Source: Methylobacillus arboreus (GTDB taxonomy: Bacteria > Pseudomonadota > Gammaproteobacteria > Burkholderiales > Methylophilaceae). From it: 64,000 bases of DNA. The notes under the pieces are model-generated. The model made no database searches. It was not told the DNA's origin and was given only the letters and a program-made list of their open reading frames with translations. The stretch lies in assembly GCF_020532725.1 (NCBI RefSeq), contig NZ_JAJAVC010000006.1, forward strand, positions 62,001-126,000. Direction: 5' to 3'. Positions 6,332 through 53,400 of this stretch are shown in pieces. Each line of letters opens with the position of its first letter. The stretch's first letter is position 1. A program made the position numbers and the translations under genes.

Positions 6332-8050
6332 TCAAAATTCAGTCCACTCATCGCCCGACACTGCCAGCGCAGGCGTTGAGGCAGCACCGATGGCTGCAAC
6401 CGGTTTAATCGTCGGCTCGGTCTTCAGCGCCTTCGGCTTGGCTGCAACGGCAGGCTTGGCTTTTACCGTGCGCGGTGCCGCAGTGGTTGGCTTGGCTTGC
6501 CAGCCACTGATCTTGAACACACTGACAGACTGGGCCAGCTTGACGGCCTGATCCTGCAAGGACTGTGACGCAGCCGCAGCCTCTTCCACCAGCGCGGCAT
6601 TCTGCTGGGTGACTTCGTCCATCTGCATGATGGCCTGGTTGACCTGTTCAATGCCTATGCTTTGCTCCTGGCTGGCAGCCGCAATCTCACTGACAATATC
6701 CGTCACACGCTTCACGCTGTTTACCACCTCACTCATGGTAGTACCAGCCTGCTCCACCAGCTTGCTGCCAGCACCCACGCTGGCAACGGAATCCCCAATC
6801 AAGGTCTTGATTTCCTTGGCGGCATTGGCAGAGCGTTGGGCCAGGCTACGCACCTCTGTCGCTACCACGGCAAAGCCGCGCCCTTGTTCACCCGCACGCG
6901 CAGCTTCCACTGCAGCGTTCAAGGCCAGGATATTGGTTTGAAATGCAATGCCGTCAATCACGCCAATAATATCGGCAATACGTTTGGAAGATTCGTTGAT
7001 GGAACCCATCGTAGCAATCACCTGCTCCACCACCTCGCCTCCCTGCACAGCCACACTGGAGGCTGACACTGCCAGCTGGTTGGCCTGGCGGGCATTATCC
7101 GCATTCTGCTTCACTGTCGAGGTCAGCTCCTCGATTGCCGAAGCCGTTTCTTCCAGCGAGCTTGCCTGCTCTTCAGTGCGGGATGACAAGTCAAGGTTGC
7201 CTGTAGCAATTTCACTGGAGGCCGTGGCCATGGTGTCAGTCCCATTCCTGACCTCACCGACAATATTGCCCAGGTTATCGTTCATCTTTTTCAATGCTGA
7301 CAACAATTGGCCGATTTCATCGGTTGAATCGACAGTGATCTTGGTTGTCAGGTCGCCGCCAGCCACTGCCTCAGCCACATCAACAGCTTTTGCCAATGGA
7401 GATGTAATGCCATGGGAAAGACGCCATGCCAGGAATGCACCCAGCCCCAGGGAAATCACACCCAATACAAGAAGCCACAAGCTGCTCGAATTCTTTACGC
7501 GCTGGATGTCGGCGCCCGCCGTATTAATCAACCCTTGTTCGAACTCCAGGAGCTTATTCACGCTGGCCAGATATTCTTCCCGCGCCGGCAAAAATTCCGC
7601 CTGGATTTTCTGGTCCAGTGTATCCATGCTTTCGCCATTGGCACGCATCTCCAGCAACGAATTGCGCACCGCCTGGAAAGCTTTTATTTTTTCTTCCGTA
7701 TTGGCAAACAATGCTTTTTCTTCTGGAGAAACAAGCGCTTCCTCAAGCTTTTTCCGTAACCCGGTATTGATAGCGCTGGTTTCCGCAATTTGCTTTTTGT
7801 ACATTTCAAACATGGCAGCATCTGGCGCCTTGATCGCTCCCAAGGCACGAATGCTGTTCTGCTTCATATTTGTTACCCATTCAGTCGCCAGCCTCTCCTT
7901 GGCCAACTCTACCTCTACCAGTTGACTTGCAGTATTTCCCACAACAAAGAGCTGACCGATACCCATTCCCACCATGATCAGGATCAATAACAAAACCGCA
8001 GCGAACCCCGCACCTAAGCGAACGCCTATTTTCAGATTTGAAAACTGCAT
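6332..8050 (-). CDS. methyl-accepting chemotaxis protein
   Basis: This is a transmembrane chemoreceptor signalling to CheA/CheW. The first transmembrane helix is near residues 8-30 ([14 protein letters not shown]). A helical periplasmic ligand domain of about 155 residues follows, then a second membrane helix near residue 190 ([17 protein letters not shown]), a HAMP domain, and a long coiled-coil signalling domain with the conserved hairpin tip ([20 protein letters not shown]). The last five residues are EWTEF, which fits the xWxxF CheR/CheB-tethering pentapeptide. The ATG at 8050 is preferred to an upstream in-frame TTG. The gene lies 40 bases downstream of cheW and is probably co-transcribed with it. 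The ligand is unknown. Confidence 0.94.
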
Positions 8051-46979: not shown

Positions 46980-47552
46980 CTAGCGCCGGTTCCAGGTACG
47001 GCCATCATCATCGGAAACCATCTCGTGGAGAGAAGAAGAGCCGTCACCACGAATTTCCAGCCAATTCAGGTTGACATGGCTATTGACCGAGCTTACTTCA
47101 ATATGGCTGACATCCGCGGCCGACATGCGCTTGGGAGGGGAAGACACCCATGCCGATCCATCCATGCGGGCATAGAATACGCCCTTGTTCATGCGCATCC
47201 ACACCAGGTGCCAGCCCCAGTTGCCGCCTCGCACAATCACCAGCAATGGGAAATGGCAGCCCAGGCTCTGGCTGCCGCCATAAGTCACTCGGCGGATACC
47301 TTGCAGACGGCCCTCCAGCGAGGTGGCCATGACCAGGTCACGTGTGCCGTCATTAAAGGTATGCTGCCAGAAAAAGACCGGCTGTCCATTGGCGTCCCGG
47401 GTCCCCGCCACACGGCAATTGCTCGGAATACGCTCAGCCAACTGACGTAGCTGGATATCTTCTTCCTGGTTAACGACATCCAGGCCGATCTCTGCCGCCA
47501 TCGTCGACCAACTGATCAAAACCCCGATAATTCCAATAATCTGCTGTTTCAT
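46980..47552 (-). CDS. secreted hypothetical protein
   Basis: The ATG at 47552 follows AAGGAAAC, giving 190 residues. A signal peptide (MKQQIIGIIGVLISWSTMAAE) leads to a soluble mature part with paired cysteines (NCRVAG, LGCHFPLL) and several Trp-rich strands (RGGNWGWHLVWMRMN). It ends NRR, and its TAG stop (46982-46980) touches the MITE-like element. I recognise no family. It is divergent from the DUF2946 gene, sharing an intergenic region with a RegA-like palindrome. Confidence 0.75.
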   Translation of the reverse strand: MKQQIIGIIGVLISWSTMAAEIGLDVVNQEEDIQLRQLAERIPSNCRVAGTRDANGQPVFFWQHTFNDGTRDLVMATSLEGRLQGIRRVTYGGSQSLGCHFPLLVIVRGGNWGWHLVWMRMNKGVFYARMDGSAWVSSPPKRMSAADVSHIEVSSVNSHVNLNWLEIRGDGSSSLHEMVSDDDGRTWNRR

Positions 47553-47593
47553 GTTTCCTTGACTCATGGAGAGCATGATGCGAATTGTACGAA

Positions 47594-47610
47594 TGCGACA
47601 ATCTGTCGCA
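47594..47610. promoter_or_regulatory. RegA/PrrA-type palindrome upstream of the DUF2946-TonB receptor genes
   Basis: TGCGACA-ATC-TGTCGCA is a perfect palindrome that fits GCGNC-N5-GNCGC. An extended -10 (TG-T-TATTAT, 47630-47638) lies downstream, which would place the transcript start at or near the ATG at 47645 and the palindrome near position -43. It lies in the shared region with the divergent gene ending at 47552. Confidence 0.6.
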
Positions 47611-47644
47611 CTGCAAGAATGGCTTTTGTTGTTATTATCCGTGC

Positions 47645-48040
47645 ATGATTCTTTTTAGGCAAAAGCGTGGGCTGATCGCCTGGTGGATCTGTATTCTCCT
47701 CATGTTCAGCGCGCTGGCGCCGACGCTGTCCCATGCTTTCACAGTCCATGGCACCCACAACACATCAGAGGTGGTCTGCTCTGCCCCGGGCAGCAAGTAT
47801 ATGCCTTTGTCAGCAAAAACGGCAGACCCAGCCCAGCCGCAACATGAACATGGGCTGGATATGAAGTACTGTCCCTATTGCAACCTGCTCCATCATAGCC
47901 CGGTATTTGCTGCAAATGAGCCACTGCCACCATACGGCGGCCATCTGGGTCACATGCTGCCTGCGCTCTACCCCCACGCCCCCAAGCCCCTGTTCGCCTG
48001 GGCGGCCATCCGGCCGCGTGGTCCGCCTGCTAACGCCTAA
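47645..48040 (+). CDS. DUF2946 family protein
   Basis: A 131-residue exported protein from ATG 47645, with a hydrophobic N-terminal segment (GLIAWWICILLMFSALAPTL) cleaved near SHAF. The mature part has potential metal ligands: VHGTH, EHGLDMKYCPYCNLLHHS. The CPYC plus His pattern is typical of DUF2946 proteins, which often neighbour TonB receptors and metal genes. A metal-binding role is inferred. There is no ribosome binding site, and a leaderless message is possible. Confidence 0.8.
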   Translation: MILFRQKRGLIAWWICILLMFSALAPTLSHAFTVHGTHNTSEVVCSAPGSKYMPLSAKTADPAQPQHEHGLDMKYCPYCNLLHHSPVFAANEPLPPYGGHLGHMLPALYPHAPKPLFAWAAIRPRGPPANA

Positions 48041-48094
48041 TTATCGTTCCAATGCGCTTTCCACATTGTGGCATCCCGATCCAGGAGTATTTTC

Positions 48095-50146
48095 ATGCAG
48101 TACTGTTACAGCCTTGTGGCGCTTGCCGTCATGGCTGCCTGCAACACGCAGGCACACGCAGACCATGTCACGACCCAGCCAACCGACAATGACTCCACTA
48201 TTACGGTAGGCGGCATTGTCGTGACTGGCAATCGCGCATCCTCCTTGCCCGCACGCAGTATTCTTTCCTCCGTTGACGTGATCGGCAGGGAAGCGGTTGA
48301 AACCCAGTCCGTGCAGAACAGCTGGCAACTGTTTTCCCGCGCACCAGGCGTGCAGCTCACCGAATACCGCATGGGCACCACCACTGGGAAATTCTCGTTC
48401 CGTGCCTTCAATGGCGAAGGCGAAGTCAATGCCGTGAAGCTGCTGATCGACGGTATCCCCAGCAACAGCAATGACGGCAACATGCCCTACCTCGACATGA
48501 TCATGCCGCTGGACATCGAAGCGATTGAGGTGGTACGCGGCACCAACGACCCACGCTACGGCCTGCACAACATTGCCGGCAATGCCAACGTAGTGACAAA
48601 AATAGGTGGTAACTATGCCACGGCACGCGCGAGCTACGGCAGCTTCAACACGCGCGAACTGCAAACCGCGCTGGGTATCGAAAAAGACGGTTTCAGCCAG
48701 AACTATTTTGCCGCGGTGCAGGAATACCATGGTTACCGCGACCATTCGGATTCCCGCAAGCACTCAGTCGCCGGCAAGTGGTTCTACGATTCGGCAGATG
48801 GCCGCTTCCGTACCGGGCTGATCGCACGCCATTACCGGCAGGATGCGCAGGAGGCTGGCTACCTGACCTATGCCCAATCCCGCACGCATCCCCGCCAGTC
48901 CATGCCGCACAACAACACCGATGGCGGCGAGCGCGAGCTCAACCAGCTCAGCCTGCACTTTGACTGGGCCATCGACGACCACTGGTTCTGGTCCAACAAG
49001 GCCTACCTCAACACCATGGACGATCAGCGCTGGGTCAGGTTCTCCGTCATGAACGCAAACCAGCAGGAACGCCTGCTGAAAGAAAACCATACTGGCGTGC
49101 TTTCCAGCCTGACCTGGCGCCCGCATGTGGAAAACCTCGGCCTGCATAGCCTGGCCGTGGAAACTGGATTCAGCGCCGAATGGCAGGACAACGAAAACTA
49201 CCGCTACACCACAGCCTCACGCAACCGCCTGGGCACTACACGCGACCAGCATTATGAATTCGATATCTACGGCGTTTACCTGCAAGCCGTGATCCGCCCC
49301 ACTGCCCGACTCAAGATTGTGCCGGCTTATCGCGTGGACCGCGTCTACGGCGACTTCAAGGACCTGCTCAGCAGCACCAGTGCCGACGTACAGGACTATG
49401 GCGCAATCCGCCAGCCCAAGATCAGCGCAGTCTACAGCCTTTCAGAGCATTACAGCGTCTATGGCAACTGGGGACGCAGCTTCCAGGTCGGCATTGGCGC
49501 AGCCACCTACAAGACCAACCCGCTCGCGCCCGATCTCAGGCCCTCGATCAACGACGGCTGGGAACTAGGCCTGAAATTCCAGTCCACCGACTGGCTAGAC
49601 GGACGTATCGCCCTGTGGGAGCAAAAGGCGAGCAATGAAGCAAGACGCATCCTCGGCAGCGCCAGCAACGATTCCGAGAACATCGGGCAAACCCTGCGGC
49701 ACGGTATCGACTTCCAGGCCAACCTGCGGCCGACCGACAGGCTGGACATCTGGGCCAACCTGTCGGTGCAGCGCTCCGAGATCACCAAGCCGGGCAACAC
49801 CGAACCAGGCAACAAGGGCAACGAAATCGACCATGTGCCGCGGCAGGTTTACGGCGTGGGGGCCGACTACCGCATCCTGCCTGCGCTCAAGCTTTCCGCC
49901 TGGGCGAATGGGCAAGGAGACTACTATCTGGAACGCGCCAATCGACAAGGCAAATTTGGTGGCTATTTGCTGATGAACTTGGGCGCTGTATGGCAAGTGC
50001 AGAAAAATCTCAGCCTGGAGCTGCAAGTTCGCAACCTTGCCGACCGTTATTATGAATATGTGTACTGGGATACCGAATACCTGCAAAGCATGCACTCACC
50101 CGGCGAAGGACGCGGCATTTATGCCTCGGTGCGCCTGGATATGTAA
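48095..50146 (+). CDS. TonB-dependent outer-membrane receptor
   Basis: The ATG at 48095 follows CAGGAG. A signal peptide ends near QAHAD. A TonB-box-like ITVGGIVVTGNR is followed by a plug domain (about residues 50-160, with APGVQLTEYRMG, LLIDGIPSNSND and IEVVRGTNDPRYG) and a 22-strand-type barrel ending GIYASVRLDM. Total about 683 residues. The substrate cannot be told from sequence; the DUF2946 and PepSY neighbours suggest a metal chelate. Confidence 0.93.
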   Translation: MQYCYSLVALAVMAACNTQAHADHVTTQPTDNDSTITVGGIVVTGNRASSLPARSILSSVDVIGREAVETQSVQNSWQLFSRAPGVQLTEYRMGTTTGKFSFRAFNGEGEVNAVKLLIDGIPSNSNDGNMPYLDMIMPLDIEAIEVVRGTNDPRYGLHNIAGNANVVTKIGGNYATARASYGSFNTRELQTALGIEKDGFSQNYFAAVQEYHGYRDHSDSRKHSVAGKWFYDSADGRFRTGLIARHYRQDAQEAGYLTYAQSRTHPRQSMPHNNTDGGERELNQLSLHFDWAIDDHWFWSNKAYLNTMDDQRWVRFSVMNANQQERLLKENHTGVLSSLTWRPHVENLGLHSLAVETGFSAEWQDNENYRYTTASRNRLGTTRDQHYEFDIYGVYLQAVIRPTARLKIVPAYRVDRVYGDFKDLLSSTSADVQDYGAIRQPKISAVYSLSEHYSVYGNWGRSFQVGIGAATYKTNPLAPDLRPSINDGWELGLKFQSTDWLDGRIALWEQKASNEARRILGSASNDSENIGQTLRHGIDFQANLRPTDRLDIWANLSVQRSEITKPGNTEPGNKGNEIDHVPRQVYGVGADYRILPALKLSAWANGQGDYYLERANRQGKFGGYLLMNLGAVWQVQKNLSLELQVRNLADRYYEYVYWDTEYLQSMHSPGEGRGIYASVRLDM

Positions 50147-50177
50147 CATCCCCGCGTCACCTATCCTGTGAGCAGCC

Positions 50178-51338
50178 ATGGCAAATAATAGACAGCGCAT
50201 TCTTTGGCTCAGACTGCATCTTTACCTCGGCCTTTCTCTAGGCGCGCTGTTCGTGCTCATGGGGCTCACCGGCAGCCTGCTGGTGTTCTATACCAAGCTC
50301 GACAGCGCGTTGAATCCGCAAATCCAGGTCACTGGCCCAGTCAGTTCCCCCTCACCCCAGGCAATCTTGGAACAGTTGCACAAAGCCTATCCAGAACGCA
50401 CCGCAGGCTGGCGCATTGAAATGCCCTTGCATGGCGATAGTCCCGTGCTGGCGCGCTACCTCAAGCCAATCGAAACCCGTGACAGGCATTTTGCACCGCT
50501 CATGGTGACGCTGGATCCGCAAACCCTGCAAGCCAGTTCTAGCCGCTTCTGGGGCGATACCGCGATGACTTGGCTCTACGACTTGCATTACACCCTGCTG
50601 CTAGATGTCAATGGCAAAAACATCATTGCGATTGCCAGCATCTTCATCCTGGTTTCCCTGGCTTCCGGCATTTACCTCTGGTGGCCGCAGAATGGCAATT
50701 TCCGCCTGGCGCTGACCTATCGCCGCCAGGCCCATTTCTATCGCCGTGTCTACGACTGGCACAAACTGTGCGGTGTCTATGGTCTGGTGTTGCTTGCCAT
50801 GCTCACCATCACCGGCATCATGCTGGAACAGCCAGACTGGTTTGAAGGCTGGCTGGGTGCAAAACCAAGCATGCTGCATATGGGCAGCGCACCAACTCCA
50901 AAGTCCGGTGCACAACCAGCGCCACCGCCAGGCATCAGCATGGACACGATGGCACACATTGCCATGCAGCAATTCCCCGGCAGTGAATTACGCTGGATAT
51001 ATACCCCGGACAGCGCAGACGGGGATTACCAGTTCCGGCTTTACCAGCCTGGCGAACCGGGGAAGCGTTTTCCCAAGACCATCGTGTTCATTACACATGA
51101 CGGCAAGGTCGCCGTCAAACGTGACTACTTTGCCGATAACAGCGGCAGCAAGGTCATGCACTGGCTGCATCCTTTACATAATGGCGAGGCATTCGGGCTT
51201 GCGGGACGCTGGCTGGTATTTGCCAGCGGCTTCATGCCACTGGTGCTGTTTGTTACCGGCTGGATGCGCTGGCGCCACAAGCGGCGTGCCGCCCGGATGC
51301 AACAACGGAGAGATTATCCGCGCAATAAAAAAGGCTGA
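50178..51338 (+). CDS. PepSY-associated membrane protein (PiuB/FoxB-like)
   Basis: A 386-residue protein with four membrane helices: near residues 12-38 (LYLGLSLGALFVLMG), 150-173 (IIAIASIFILVSLASGIYL), 198-220 (VYGLVLLAMLTITGI) and 345-368 (WLVFASGFMPLVLFVTG). Histidines at helix ends (LRLHLYLG, DLHYTLLLD, YDWHKLCG, MHWLHPLHN) could bind haem. This family includes inner-membrane siderophore reductases such as FoxB and PiuB. It lies 31 bases after the TonB receptor gene and probably shares its transcript. Confidence 0.88.
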   Translation: MANNRQRILWLRLHLYLGLSLGALFVLMGLTGSLLVFYTKLDSALNPQIQVTGPVSSPSPQAILEQLHKAYPERTAGWRIEMPLHGDSPVLARYLKPIETRDRHFAPLMVTLDPQTLQASSSRFWGDTAMTWLYDLHYTLLLDVNGKNIIAIASIFILVSLASGIYLWWPQNGNFRLALTYRRQAHFYRRVYDWHKLCGVYGLVLLAMLTITGIMLEQPDWFEGWLGAKPSMLHMGSAPTPKSGAQPAPPPGISMDTMAHIAMQQFPGSELRWIYTPDSADGDYQFRLYQPGEPGKRFPKTIVFITHDGKVAVKRDYFADNSGSKVMHWLHPLHNGEAFGLAGRWLVFASGFMPLVLFVTGWMRWRHKRRAARMQQRRDYPRNKKG

Positions 51339-51443
51339 GCACCAGCAAGCGCCCAGCCCCAGGCAGTCCATCAACCAGACTGTAGATGAGGTATCCCAGA
51401 AACAGGATGCATCCATCTTAAATCCCCGCTTACTGAAGTGGAA

Positions 51444-51460
51444 TGCGACATGTTGTCGCA
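51444..51460. promoter_or_regulatory. RegA/PrrA-type palindrome 1 upstream of regB
   Basis: TGCGACA-TGT-TGTCGCA, a perfect palindrome identical in both arms to the one at 47594. It overlaps the -35 (TTGTCG, 51453-51458) of a weak promoter with -10 TACAAT at 51478-51483. Confidence 0.6.
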
Positions 51461-51497
51461 GGCGCTTGGAGACTGTTTACAATCCATCCCGTAGCAG

Positions 51498-51514
51498 CGC
51501 GACATTTTGCCGCA
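51498..51514. promoter_or_regulatory. RegA/PrrA-type palindrome 2 upstream of regB (degenerate)
   Basis: CGCGACA-TTT-TGCCGCA differs from the perfect site at one base in each arm but still fits GCGNC-N5-GNCGC. Its centre is 54 bases from that of site 1, about five helical turns, and it ends 36 bases before the regB ATG. Confidence 0.5.
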
Positions 51515-51550
51515 TGCCCGGCAAGCGGGCACTTGCAGTAAAATGCCGGC

Positions 51551-52855
51551 ATGTCCTCCCTTGCCTTTGCCACCAACCTGCGCCGCCTGCTCTGGCTGCG
51601 TGTCGTCATGATGGCAGCACTGCTGCTGGCAAGCCTGGTAGCCACCCATCTCTACCATATTGCACTGCCTGTTACCGAAGTCGCCGCTGCACTCGGGCTT
51701 ATGCTGGCAATTAACCTTGTCAGCTGGCTGCGCCTGTGGCGCAAAGCGCGCATTCATGAAACCGAACTTCTGGCGCAACTACTGCTGGATATCGCCATTC
51801 TGACCTGGCTGTTTTATGCCACTGGCGGCTACAGCAACCCCTTTGTCTGGATGTACCTGCTGCCATTGGCTGTCGCAGCGGTAGCATTGCCGTGGCGTTT
51901 TACCTGGCTGATCGCAGGATTGGTCATTGCCGCCTATAGCCTGCTGATGTTCTGGTATCGCCCGCTGGCAACCATGGCGCACGACCACCTGCATACCGCT
52001 GCATCAGCCTCCCACTCACTGCACGACGACAGCTTCAACCTGCACCTGCTGGGCATGTGGGGCGGGTTTGTTGTCAGCGCCATTGTCATTGCATTTTTTG
52101 TGGAACGTATGGGCCGCAACCTGCGCGAGTATGACCGGTTGCTTGCCGAATCGCGGGAAAAAGTGCTCGCGAGCGAGCGCATGCTGGCCCTTGGCACACT
52201 GGCCACCGGTGCCGCCCATGAACTGGGCACCCCTCTATCCACCATGGCCGTGCTGACCAAGGACCTGCTGGAGGAAAACCGAAACCAACCGGAGCTGGCT
52301 GCATCGCTAACCCTGTTACGCACACAGGTAGACCGCTGCAAGGAAATTCTTTCCTCCTTAACTGCCGCCACGGGCATGATGCGCTCGGAAGCCGCGAGCC
52401 CGATGAGCATAGAAGCCTTTATCCGCCAACTGGCACAGCGCTGGTCCGATACCCGCCCGGCGACCCCGCTCAAGCTGGAATTGCATTTGCCGACCCCTTG
52501 TCCCAACATGGCGGCCGACCTTGCACTGGGACAAGCCATTACCAACCTCGTCAACAATGCGGCAGACGCCTCTCCAGAAGGCATCCAGCTCATTGCCAGC
52601 ATCGCTCAGGACAACCTGTTGCTGGAAATCCATGACCGCGGATGCTTTCCCGATGAGCATACACTGGCCACAATGGGCTTGCCCTTCAACACCTCGAAAC
52701 AAGCCAGCGGGGGATTGGGACTGGGCATCTTCCTCGCCAAATCGGTGCTGGAAAAGTTTGATGGCGACATCATGTTCGAGCGCCTGGAACCTCAGGGCAC
52801 GGTCACCCGCATCCGCATTCCGCTGGCTGGCATCATCCTGGAAACGCAGGCATGA
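51551..52855 (+). CDS. regB: redox sensor histidine kinase RegB/PrrB/ActS
   Basis: A 434-residue membrane kinase that senses the redox state of the quinone pool and phosphorylates RegA. Six membrane helices span about residues 12-185. The quinone-binding heptapeptide GGxxNPF is present as GGYSNPF at 92-98. The phospho-acceptor is His223 in GAAHELGTPLS, and the redox-active cysteine of the family corresponds to Cys263 in DRCKEIL. N-box NLVNNAADAS and G-box GGLGLGIF complete the ATPase domain. The stop overlaps regA by 4 bases. Confidence 0.95.
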   Translation: MSSLAFATNLRRLLWLRVVMMAALLLASLVATHLYHIALPVTEVAAALGLMLAINLVSWLRLWRKARIHETELLAQLLLDIAILTWLFYATGGYSNPFVWMYLLPLAVAAVALPWRFTWLIAGLVIAAYSLLMFWYRPLATMAHDHLHTAASASHSLHDDSFNLHLLGMWGGFVVSAIVIAFFVERMGRNLREYDRLLAESREKVLASERMLALGTLATGAAHELGTPLSTMAVLTKDLLEENRNQPELAASLTLLRTQVDRCKEILSSLTAATGMMRSEAASPMSIEAFIRQLAQRWSDTRPATPLKLELHLPTPCPNMAADLALGQAITNLVNNAADASPEGIQLIASIAQDNLLLEIHDRGCFPDEHTLATMGLPFNTSKQASGGLGLGIFLAKSVLEKFDGDIMFERLEPQGTVTRIRIPLAGIILETQA

Positions 52856-53400
52856 TGGATAACAGCGCTGATCTCCCCACCATGCTGCTGGTGGATGATG
52901 ATGAAATATTTACCCAGGTTCTGGCCCGGGCAATGGAAAAGCGCGGCTTTCAGGTTCAAGTGGCGCATAATGTCCATGATGCAACTGCCATGACAATACA
53001 AGAAGCGCCTGAATACGCCGTCGTCGACCTCAAAATGCCGGGCGACTCCGGCCTGACCCTGGTCAAGCACCTGAAGCAGATAGACGGCCAGACCCGCATT
53101 GTGGTGCTCACCGGTTATGCCAGCATTGCCACCGCAGTAGAAGCGGTAAAACTCGGTGCTACCCATTACCTGGCGAAACCAGCCGATGCCGACCAGATAC
53201 TGGCCGCTTTCGAACGCATCGAAGGCGATCCTGATGCGCCTGTGCCGGACAATGCCTTGTCGGTAAACCGCATGGAATGGGAACATATACAACGGGTACT
53301 GCAGGAAAACGACGGCAATATCTCGGCCACCGCCCGTAGCCTGAATATGCACAGGCGTACCCTGCAGCGCAAACTGAATAAGCACCCAGCGAGGAAATAA
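52852..53400 (+). CDS. regA: response regulator RegA/PrrA/ActR
   Basis: A 182-residue two-domain regulator. The receiver domain has acidic DDDE at 15-18, phospho-acceptor Asp59 in VVDLKMPGDSG, Thr in LTGYAS and Lys in LAKPA. The C-terminal Fis-type helix-turn-helix NISATARSLNMHRRTLQRKL is close to the highly conserved RegA DNA-binding helix. It is translationally coupled to regB. In other bacteria RegA controls respiration, carbon and nitrogen metabolism in response to redox state. Confidence 0.96.
   Translation: MMDNSADLPTMLLVDDDEIFTQVLARAMEKRGFQVQVAHNVHDATAMTIQEAPEYAVVDLKMPGDSGLTLVKHLKQIDGQTRIVVLTGYASIATAVEAVKLGATHYLAKPADADQILAAFERIEGDPDAPVPDNALSVNRMEWEHIQRVLQENDGNISATARSLNMHRRTLQRKLNKHPARK

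Follow-up and report, generated by a model that had tools for sequence, protein, structure and literature searches.

RegB-type sensor kinases are defined by a quinone motif (GGXXNPF), an H-box and a conserved redox-box Cys (PMC8191878, PMC5506826), and RegB/RegA-type systems have been reported to autoregulate and to control copper enzymes (nos) (PMC5506826, PMC4064962, PMC5359404). RegA sites are degenerate; a RegR box pattern, GNGRCRTTNNGNCGC, has been quoted, and no motif was found in Acidithiobacillus (PMC5506826). In Methylomonas sp. DH-1, RegB/A controls iron uptake (PMC13274454). In Bordetella, the CruR leader peptide, marked by CXXC and a RAPP arrest motif at 45-residue spacing, stalls at RAPP, and Rho then terminates transcription when copper is present (PMC9426467). 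Regulators of anaerobic growth also drive small RNAs, namely FnrS in E. coli and the FnrL-bound RSs0019 and RSs2461 in Rhodobacter (PMC4263372).

The window analyzed here, a 64,000-nucleotide stretch of Methylobacillus arboreus DNA, places regB and regA beside a TonB-receptor operon, with copies of one palindrome upstream of both. The sequence-only reading had located two perfect palindromes and a third copy with one change per arm, and had assigned all of them to the pattern GCGNC-N5-GNCGC; we confirmed the coordinates, and all three sites fit the pattern.

47594-47610, no strand assigned: putative RegA box 1, perfect TGCGACA-N3-TGTCGCA, centered at about -43 relative to the predicted copper-operon start
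51444-51460, no strand assigned: putative RegA box 2, perfect TGCGACA-N3-TGTCGCA, predicted to serve a minus-strand small-RNA promoter, centered at about -44
51498-51514, no strand assigned: putative RegA box 3, degenerate (CGCGACATTTTGCCGCA, one change in each arm compared to the perfect palindrome), predicted regB-proximal autoregulatory site, centered at about -45

We consider it likely that this palindrome is a high-affinity RegB/RegA box, predicted to activate four promoters, those of the copper operon, regBA, a small RNA and an OprC-like receptor. A single redox switch appears from these comparisons to be tied to both copper supply and an RNA regulator.

Chance is excluded as the source of the palindromes, which are real. 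The genome scan proposed in the sequence-only reading returned exactly two perfect copies in the 3,045,306 bp of this genome, both at this locus and 3.85 kb apart, where about 0.02 were expected (0.013-0.025, from base or dinucleotide composition), and a reversed control pattern had no copy in the whole genome. The perfect palindrome was found in 26 of 150 genomes of the family and the control in two. A search of plasmid DNA gave no match. When up to two mismatches were allowed, the genome contained 15 sites compared to 10 for the control. The two-mismatch scan by itself was thus near noise, most of the weaker matches being uninformative until the promoter layout is considered as well, and promoter geometry was added as a criterion.

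Judged by their hallmarks, the two regulatory proteins encoded in the window are RegB and RegA, although both score under the NCBIfam curated cut-offs.

51551-52855, plus strand: regB, sensor kinase with the GGYSNPF quinone motif, H-box HELGTPL and redox-box Cys263
52852-53400, plus strand: regA, response regulator with a receiver and a Fis-type HTH

RegB carries the defining features of the kinase class, with GGYSNPF at residue 92, HELGTPL at residue 223 and Cys263 within QVDRCKEIL; its best family by a wide margin is NCBIfam NF033792, at 224.8 bits and under the curated cut-off of 350 bits. The regA gene overlaps the regB stop and encodes the receiver and Fis HTH expected of a regB partner; the best family of its product is NF033791, at 210.5 bits and under the curated cut-off of 250 bits. 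None of 399 genomes of the order passed the NF033791 cut-off and Caulobacter passes it, so that this cut-off looks alpha-proteobacterial. RegA also matches the solved RegA-type proteins 3rqi and 1umq (E 6e-52 for 3rqi, with a near-identical HTH).

Like RegB/RegA, PrrB/PrrA, RegS/RegR and ActS/ActR, the locus combines both proteins, the quinone motif, H-box, redox-box Cys and Fis-type HTH with sites of the GCGNC-N5-GNCGC type. Unlike in those systems, the 17-bp palindrome here hardly varies and keeps a single distance to the -10, and it apparently serves a candidate small RNA as well as genes for copper import and chaperones. The window RegA has no Cys residue, and the copper/oxygen dimerization through Cys156 described for R. 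capsulatus RegA (PMC9147068) therefore cannot apply here.

The boxes are set apart from background by their distance to a -10 element. Promoters of copper receptors in the family have a -10 hexamer 22-23 nt past the palindrome, and over 70 distinct box flanks, gathered without using the -10 as a criterion, TANNNT occurred 27 times at 22-24 nt and less than once per position on average elsewhere. With the transcription start placed 7 nt after the -10, the predicted box center falls at about -43 to -45, next to and touching the -35 region, most likely the position of an activator contacting polymerase. The genome of the window contains exactly four promoters with a box, 22-24 nt and TANNNT: at 47594 (plus strand), at 51444 (minus strand), at 51498 (plus strand) and before an OprC-like copper receptor gene about 530 kb away. 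A generic promoter scan recovered none of the RegA-type promoters, as expected because these promoters are predicted to be activator-dependent. In several species the ATG of both cruR (see below) and regB lies exactly 6 nt past the -10 (47633-47654 and 51539-51553 in the window), and both mRNAs look leaderless.

A site that touches the -35 region could also be one through which RegA represses, in which case active RegA would reduce both copper import and its own production. RegA/PrrA proteins are known both as activators and as repressors, and the boxes before nosZ in relatives of this species lie close to the start codon, which suits repression. Nevertheless, a single fixed spacing to the -10, combined with poor -35 hexamers, is the arrangement of an activator touching polymerase, whereas a repressor would tolerate varied positions, and we regard repression at these promoters as unlikely. 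Activation by RegA is the reading adopted below.

Because it matches cruR-crtA-crpH, the operon behind box 1 most likely serves copper uptake, a function that the sequence-only reading had missed.

47633-47638, plus strand: copper-operon -10, TATTAT, 22 nt past box 1; TATTATCCGTRCATG is conserved in five Methylobacillus species
47645-48040, plus strand: DUF2946 gene (PF11162, 51 bits), a CruR-type copper-responsive upstream ORF with its ATG at the predicted +1 (leaderless)
48095-50146, plus strand: TonB-dependent receptor, labeled CrtA-like because of its place between cruR and the PepSY gene (PMC12914433)
50178-51338, plus strand: PepSY_TM protein, counterpart of Bordetella BP2921/CrpH (PMC13038864)

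Motif and synteny both support this assignment. The first gene of the operon encodes a DUF2946 protein laid out as CPYC, 45 residues, RGPP, three residues (ANA) and stop, giving a CXXC, a RAPP-like motif near the C terminus and the 45-residue spacing of CruR; RGPP is a variant of RAPP, which is present in two congeners. Gene order and a CXXC plus arrest motif at 45-residue spacing are shared with cruR-crtA-bp2921(crpH) of Bordetella pertussis (PMC9426467, PMC12914433, PMC13038864). In contrast to the B. pertussis operon, the arrest motif here is RGPP instead of RAPP, the gap between cruR and crtA is 54 bp instead of 162, and cruR looks leaderless instead of having a 45-nt leader; the operon here also has a putative RegA promoter, whereas we found no regulator named in PMC9426467, PMC12914433 or PMC13038864. 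The CrtA subfamily is characterized by membership of one sequence cluster and an invariant binding-site His, with lengths of 707-911 aa reported (PMC12914433). The receptor here is shorter, at 683 aa, and its CrtA likeness comes from synteny; a PDB search with it matched the colicin I receptor only and no CrtA entry.

Comparison across species indicates that the link between the RegA promoter and the cruR operon is recurrent but labile. The box precedes cruR in two of the five Methylobacillus species having the operon, the window species and its nearest relative, and is absent from the other three, which share the -10 and the ATG. Beyond the genus, two other families of the order have orthologues of the TonB receptor (52-55% identity) preceded by perfect RegA promoters, in one case with a PepSY-like protein (27% identity) downstream. 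The suggestion in the sequence-only reading that RegA controls the uptake genes thus gains from the RegA promoter on the operon and its recurrence before receptor orthologues, but is weakened by the three unboxed congeners. In the nearest relative (L071 in G030, about 7150-7226), the RegA box and -10 are kept and the cruR frame stops after nine codons, and crtA seems freed from the copper leader. Divergent from cruR in the window, an ORF at 46980-47576 (minus strand) has no Pfam match and is distantly related (about 31-37%) to BNR-type proteins found beside putatively RegA-controlled TonB receptors elsewhere.

The strongest departure from the first reading concerns the perfect box at 51444, from which, most likely, a new candidate small RNA is driven in the minus-strand direction.

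51415-51420, minus strand: small-RNA -10, TAAGAT, 23 nt past box 2
51327-51408, minus strand: candidate small RNA, about 82 nt, with three hairpins and an invariant AUACCUCAUC between hairpins 1 and 2
51331-51360, minus strand: intrinsic terminator of the candidate small RNA, 13 pairs followed by a U run

Read away from regB (51460-51444), box 2 is followed after 23 nt by TAAGAT (51420-51415), with a predicted start at 51408. In six Methylobacillus genomes, conservation covers the box, a TTCC, the -10 and the RNA, whereas the spacer and flanks have diverged. The RNA folds into three hairpins (z -3.2), in which seven of 24 pairs have changed on both sides and 94% of pairs are standard, a result as high in none of 500 shuffles; these counts come from a model-fitted alignment, which leans toward the model, and an unfitted alignment yields the same seven pairs. 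Shifting the pairing by one alignment column reduced standard pairs to less than 50%. A covariance model had one match in each of the six Methylobacillus genomes (81-98 bits). In 144 other genomes outside the genus no match was convincing; the weak, unsupported ones had E values of 0.04-0.09. Rfam searches of the window and of the RNA gave only chance-level matches (sbrA, 16 bits; NsiR1, 16 bits).

The candidate therefore has, at the level of sequence, what is expected of a small RNA: its own promoter, an intrinsic terminator, a conserved structure and a single-stranded seed. If expressed, it probably acts by base pairing through the invariant ACCUCAUC, which is complementary to the Shine-Dalgarno-like GAUGAGGU. 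A target search with GATGAGGTA as a simple 9-nt seed in four genomes revealed no conserved target; only two occurrences were pairwise-conserved, and neither was closely followed by a consistent start codon. Like FnrS, RSs0019 and RSs2461, this RNA would be driven by a redox/oxygen regulator; unlike them, it has a RegA box, no Rfam relation, a distribution restricted to the genus and a gene divergent from regB. We found no paper in the open-access literature joining Methylobacillus with a small RNA. In another genus (L089 in G018), a degenerate RegA box at 2825-2841 is followed after 23 nt by TAGAAT divergent from regB, and a different hairpin-rich RNA with a terminator lies immediately to the right of the box, possibly an independent RegA-driven small RNA.

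The terminator of the candidate overlaps the pepSY stop codon, raising the alternative that the minus-strand RNA has no regulatory role and is either a mere terminator or a byproduct that shields the PepSY mRNA at its 3' end. We consider this improbable: a genome that lacks the whole TonB operon (G053) retains the box, the -10 and all three hairpins, and hairpins 1 and 2 and the linker AUACCUCAUC, all upstream of the terminator, are conserved or covarying.

Slightly less probable again is that the perfect box at 51444 is the regB operator, as the sequence-only reading had it, with a -10 (TACAAT) 17 nt downstream and the hairpins to the left incidental. The window does contain TACAAT, and about 100 bp separate the box from the regB ATG, but TACAAT at 17 nt is conserved in no relative. 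Moreover, in two Methylobacillus species the perfect box and the RNA lie 507-512 bp from regB with their mutual geometry intact, the small-RNA -10 still 23 nt from the box, and in most of the family a degenerate proximal box maintains a spacing of 22-24 nt to a -10 that precedes regB. We rejected 51444 as the regB operator on this conservation of promoter geometry. The earlier placement of both perfect sites 38-43 bases before a transcript start consequently held for 47594 but not for 51444, where the TACAAT facing regB is unconserved and the opposite -10 is conserved. A small-RNA promoter remains the preferred assignment of box 2, and the regB promoter is assigned to box 3.

51539-51544, plus strand: regB -10, TAAAAT, 24 nt past box 3 and 6 nt before the regB ATG (leaderless)

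On direct inspection, box 3 fits the published RegR pattern with no mismatches. A box with up to two mismatches lies within 200 bp upstream of regB at 26 of 30 regB loci of the family, and none was found at the same threshold in 36 kb of regB coding sequence of the family. In most of these upstream regions there are two boxes, oriented in opposite directions and each paired with a separate -10. The proximal box is weaker, with its -10 shortly before the regB ATG, and the distal box is often perfect, with its -10 at 23 nt in the direction opposite to regB. In most relatives the distal promoter faces a gene for a TonB receptor, a PCuAC-like chaperone or a Cys-rich signal-peptide-bearing protein (names assigned by inspection except where hmmscan was used). 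The regBA autoregulation proposed in the sequence-only reading is thus supported across the family, although it would operate through the weaker 51498 box and not through the perfect copy at 51444.

The distribution of the box strongly supports RegA as its reader, as previously proposed. A box followed at 22-24 nt by TANNNT was found in 61 of 399 genomes of the order, compared to none for the reversed control. RegA (NF033791 at E <= 1e-30) is present in all 61 of these genomes and in 177 of the 399 (p ~3e-25, which overstates independence because the genomes are related), and no box promoter was found in the 222 RegA-negative genomes; the perfect box promoter is absent from 116 of the 177 RegA-bearing genomes. 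Within the family, 24 of the 26 palindrome-bearing genomes have a RegB orthologue, compared to 51 of 150 overall (p ~1e-11, with independence again inflated by relatedness). Of the two exceptions, one (G056) encodes a divergent kinase beside a RegA-like protein, with the palindrome right after the latter, and the other (G023) is a genome that is 75% complete. Relatedness inflates these p values, yet the absence of the box promoter from all 222 RegA-negative genomes is hard to explain without a link to RegA. The link comes from sequence comparison, and RegA boxes in other systems are degenerate, with no motif found in Acidithiobacillus (PMC5506826), but a different regulator co-inherited with regBA is highly unlikely given the 61 of 61 and 0 of 222 counts, the position of the box next to regB throughout the family, its fit to the RegR pattern and the match of the RegA HTH to 3rqi and 1umq.

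Genes directly behind RegA promoters in the order encode PCuAC, CopC, DUF1775/YcnI, OprC, TonB, a CrtA-like TonB-dependent receptor and RegB, a list made from the loci returned by the search and not from all 61 genomes. In the family, the palindrome adjoins nosZ, the coxB side, the cydA/ccoG side and a katG-like gene (all but nosZ named by inspection). Most of the genes with a palindrome or RegA promoter serve copper acquisition or copper enzymes. In the open-access literature we found no description of copper receptors being controlled by RegA. The RegBA system of Methylomonas sp. DH-1 shares with this one a methylotrophic host and metal uptake that includes a TonB receptor, but differs in that the metal is iron and not copper, direct binding is at feo only, and no binding motif is given (PMC13274454).

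We propose that a RegA dimer occupies the box, with its center near -43 to -45, immediately upstream of the -35 region and in contact with it. From there RegA would most likely activate a promoter of the sigma-70 type, with the -10 located 22-24 nt beyond the box. Low oxygen or copper-starved oxidases would leave the quinone pool reduced, RegB would sense reduced quinone through GGYSNPF and switch RegA on, and active RegA would raise copper supply. Transcription of cruR-crtA-pepSY would be set by RegA according to respiratory redox state, with the CruR leader peptide vetoing read-through once copper is present. RegA would also autoregulate regBA through the weaker box at 51498, use the perfect box at 51444 to drive the divergent RNA (about 82 nt) and act at a fourth promoter on the OprC-like copper receptor gene elsewhere in the genome. 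More tentatively, and with slightly less than an even chance of being right, RegB/RegA may act in Betaproteobacteria at large as a transcriptional regulator of copper supply (receptors, PCuAC, CopC and YcnI), working from an activator promoter of rigid layout, with CruR as the off-switch and, in Methylobacillus, a small RNA relaying the signal to mRNAs.

With a box that barely varies and a constant spacing to the -10, the direct RegA regulon would become readable from sequence across the order, and that regulon points to copper supply. The RegA promoter may also explain how cruR-type copper operons are transcribed, and it makes a feedback loop from quinone to copper directly testable. The small RNA would represent a new family of RNAs under redox control, one whose seed can be tested.

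Finally, some loci depart from the promoter arrangement described above. The palindromes before nosZ (L028, L029, L031, L033, L034 and L085) lie about 40-45 nt from the ATG, mostly without a -10 at the canonical 22-24 nt, and look placed at or after the promoter, which suggests a different, perhaps repressing, use of RegA. A perfect palindrome upstream of a katG-like catalase-peroxidase gene (L083 in G055) has no convincing -10 at the canonical spacing. Pfam searches with two members of the Cys-rich family (L131 and L140) gave no match; genes for these signal-peptide-bearing proteins occur repeatedly behind RegA promoters in the order (L128, L131, L139, L140 and L141).
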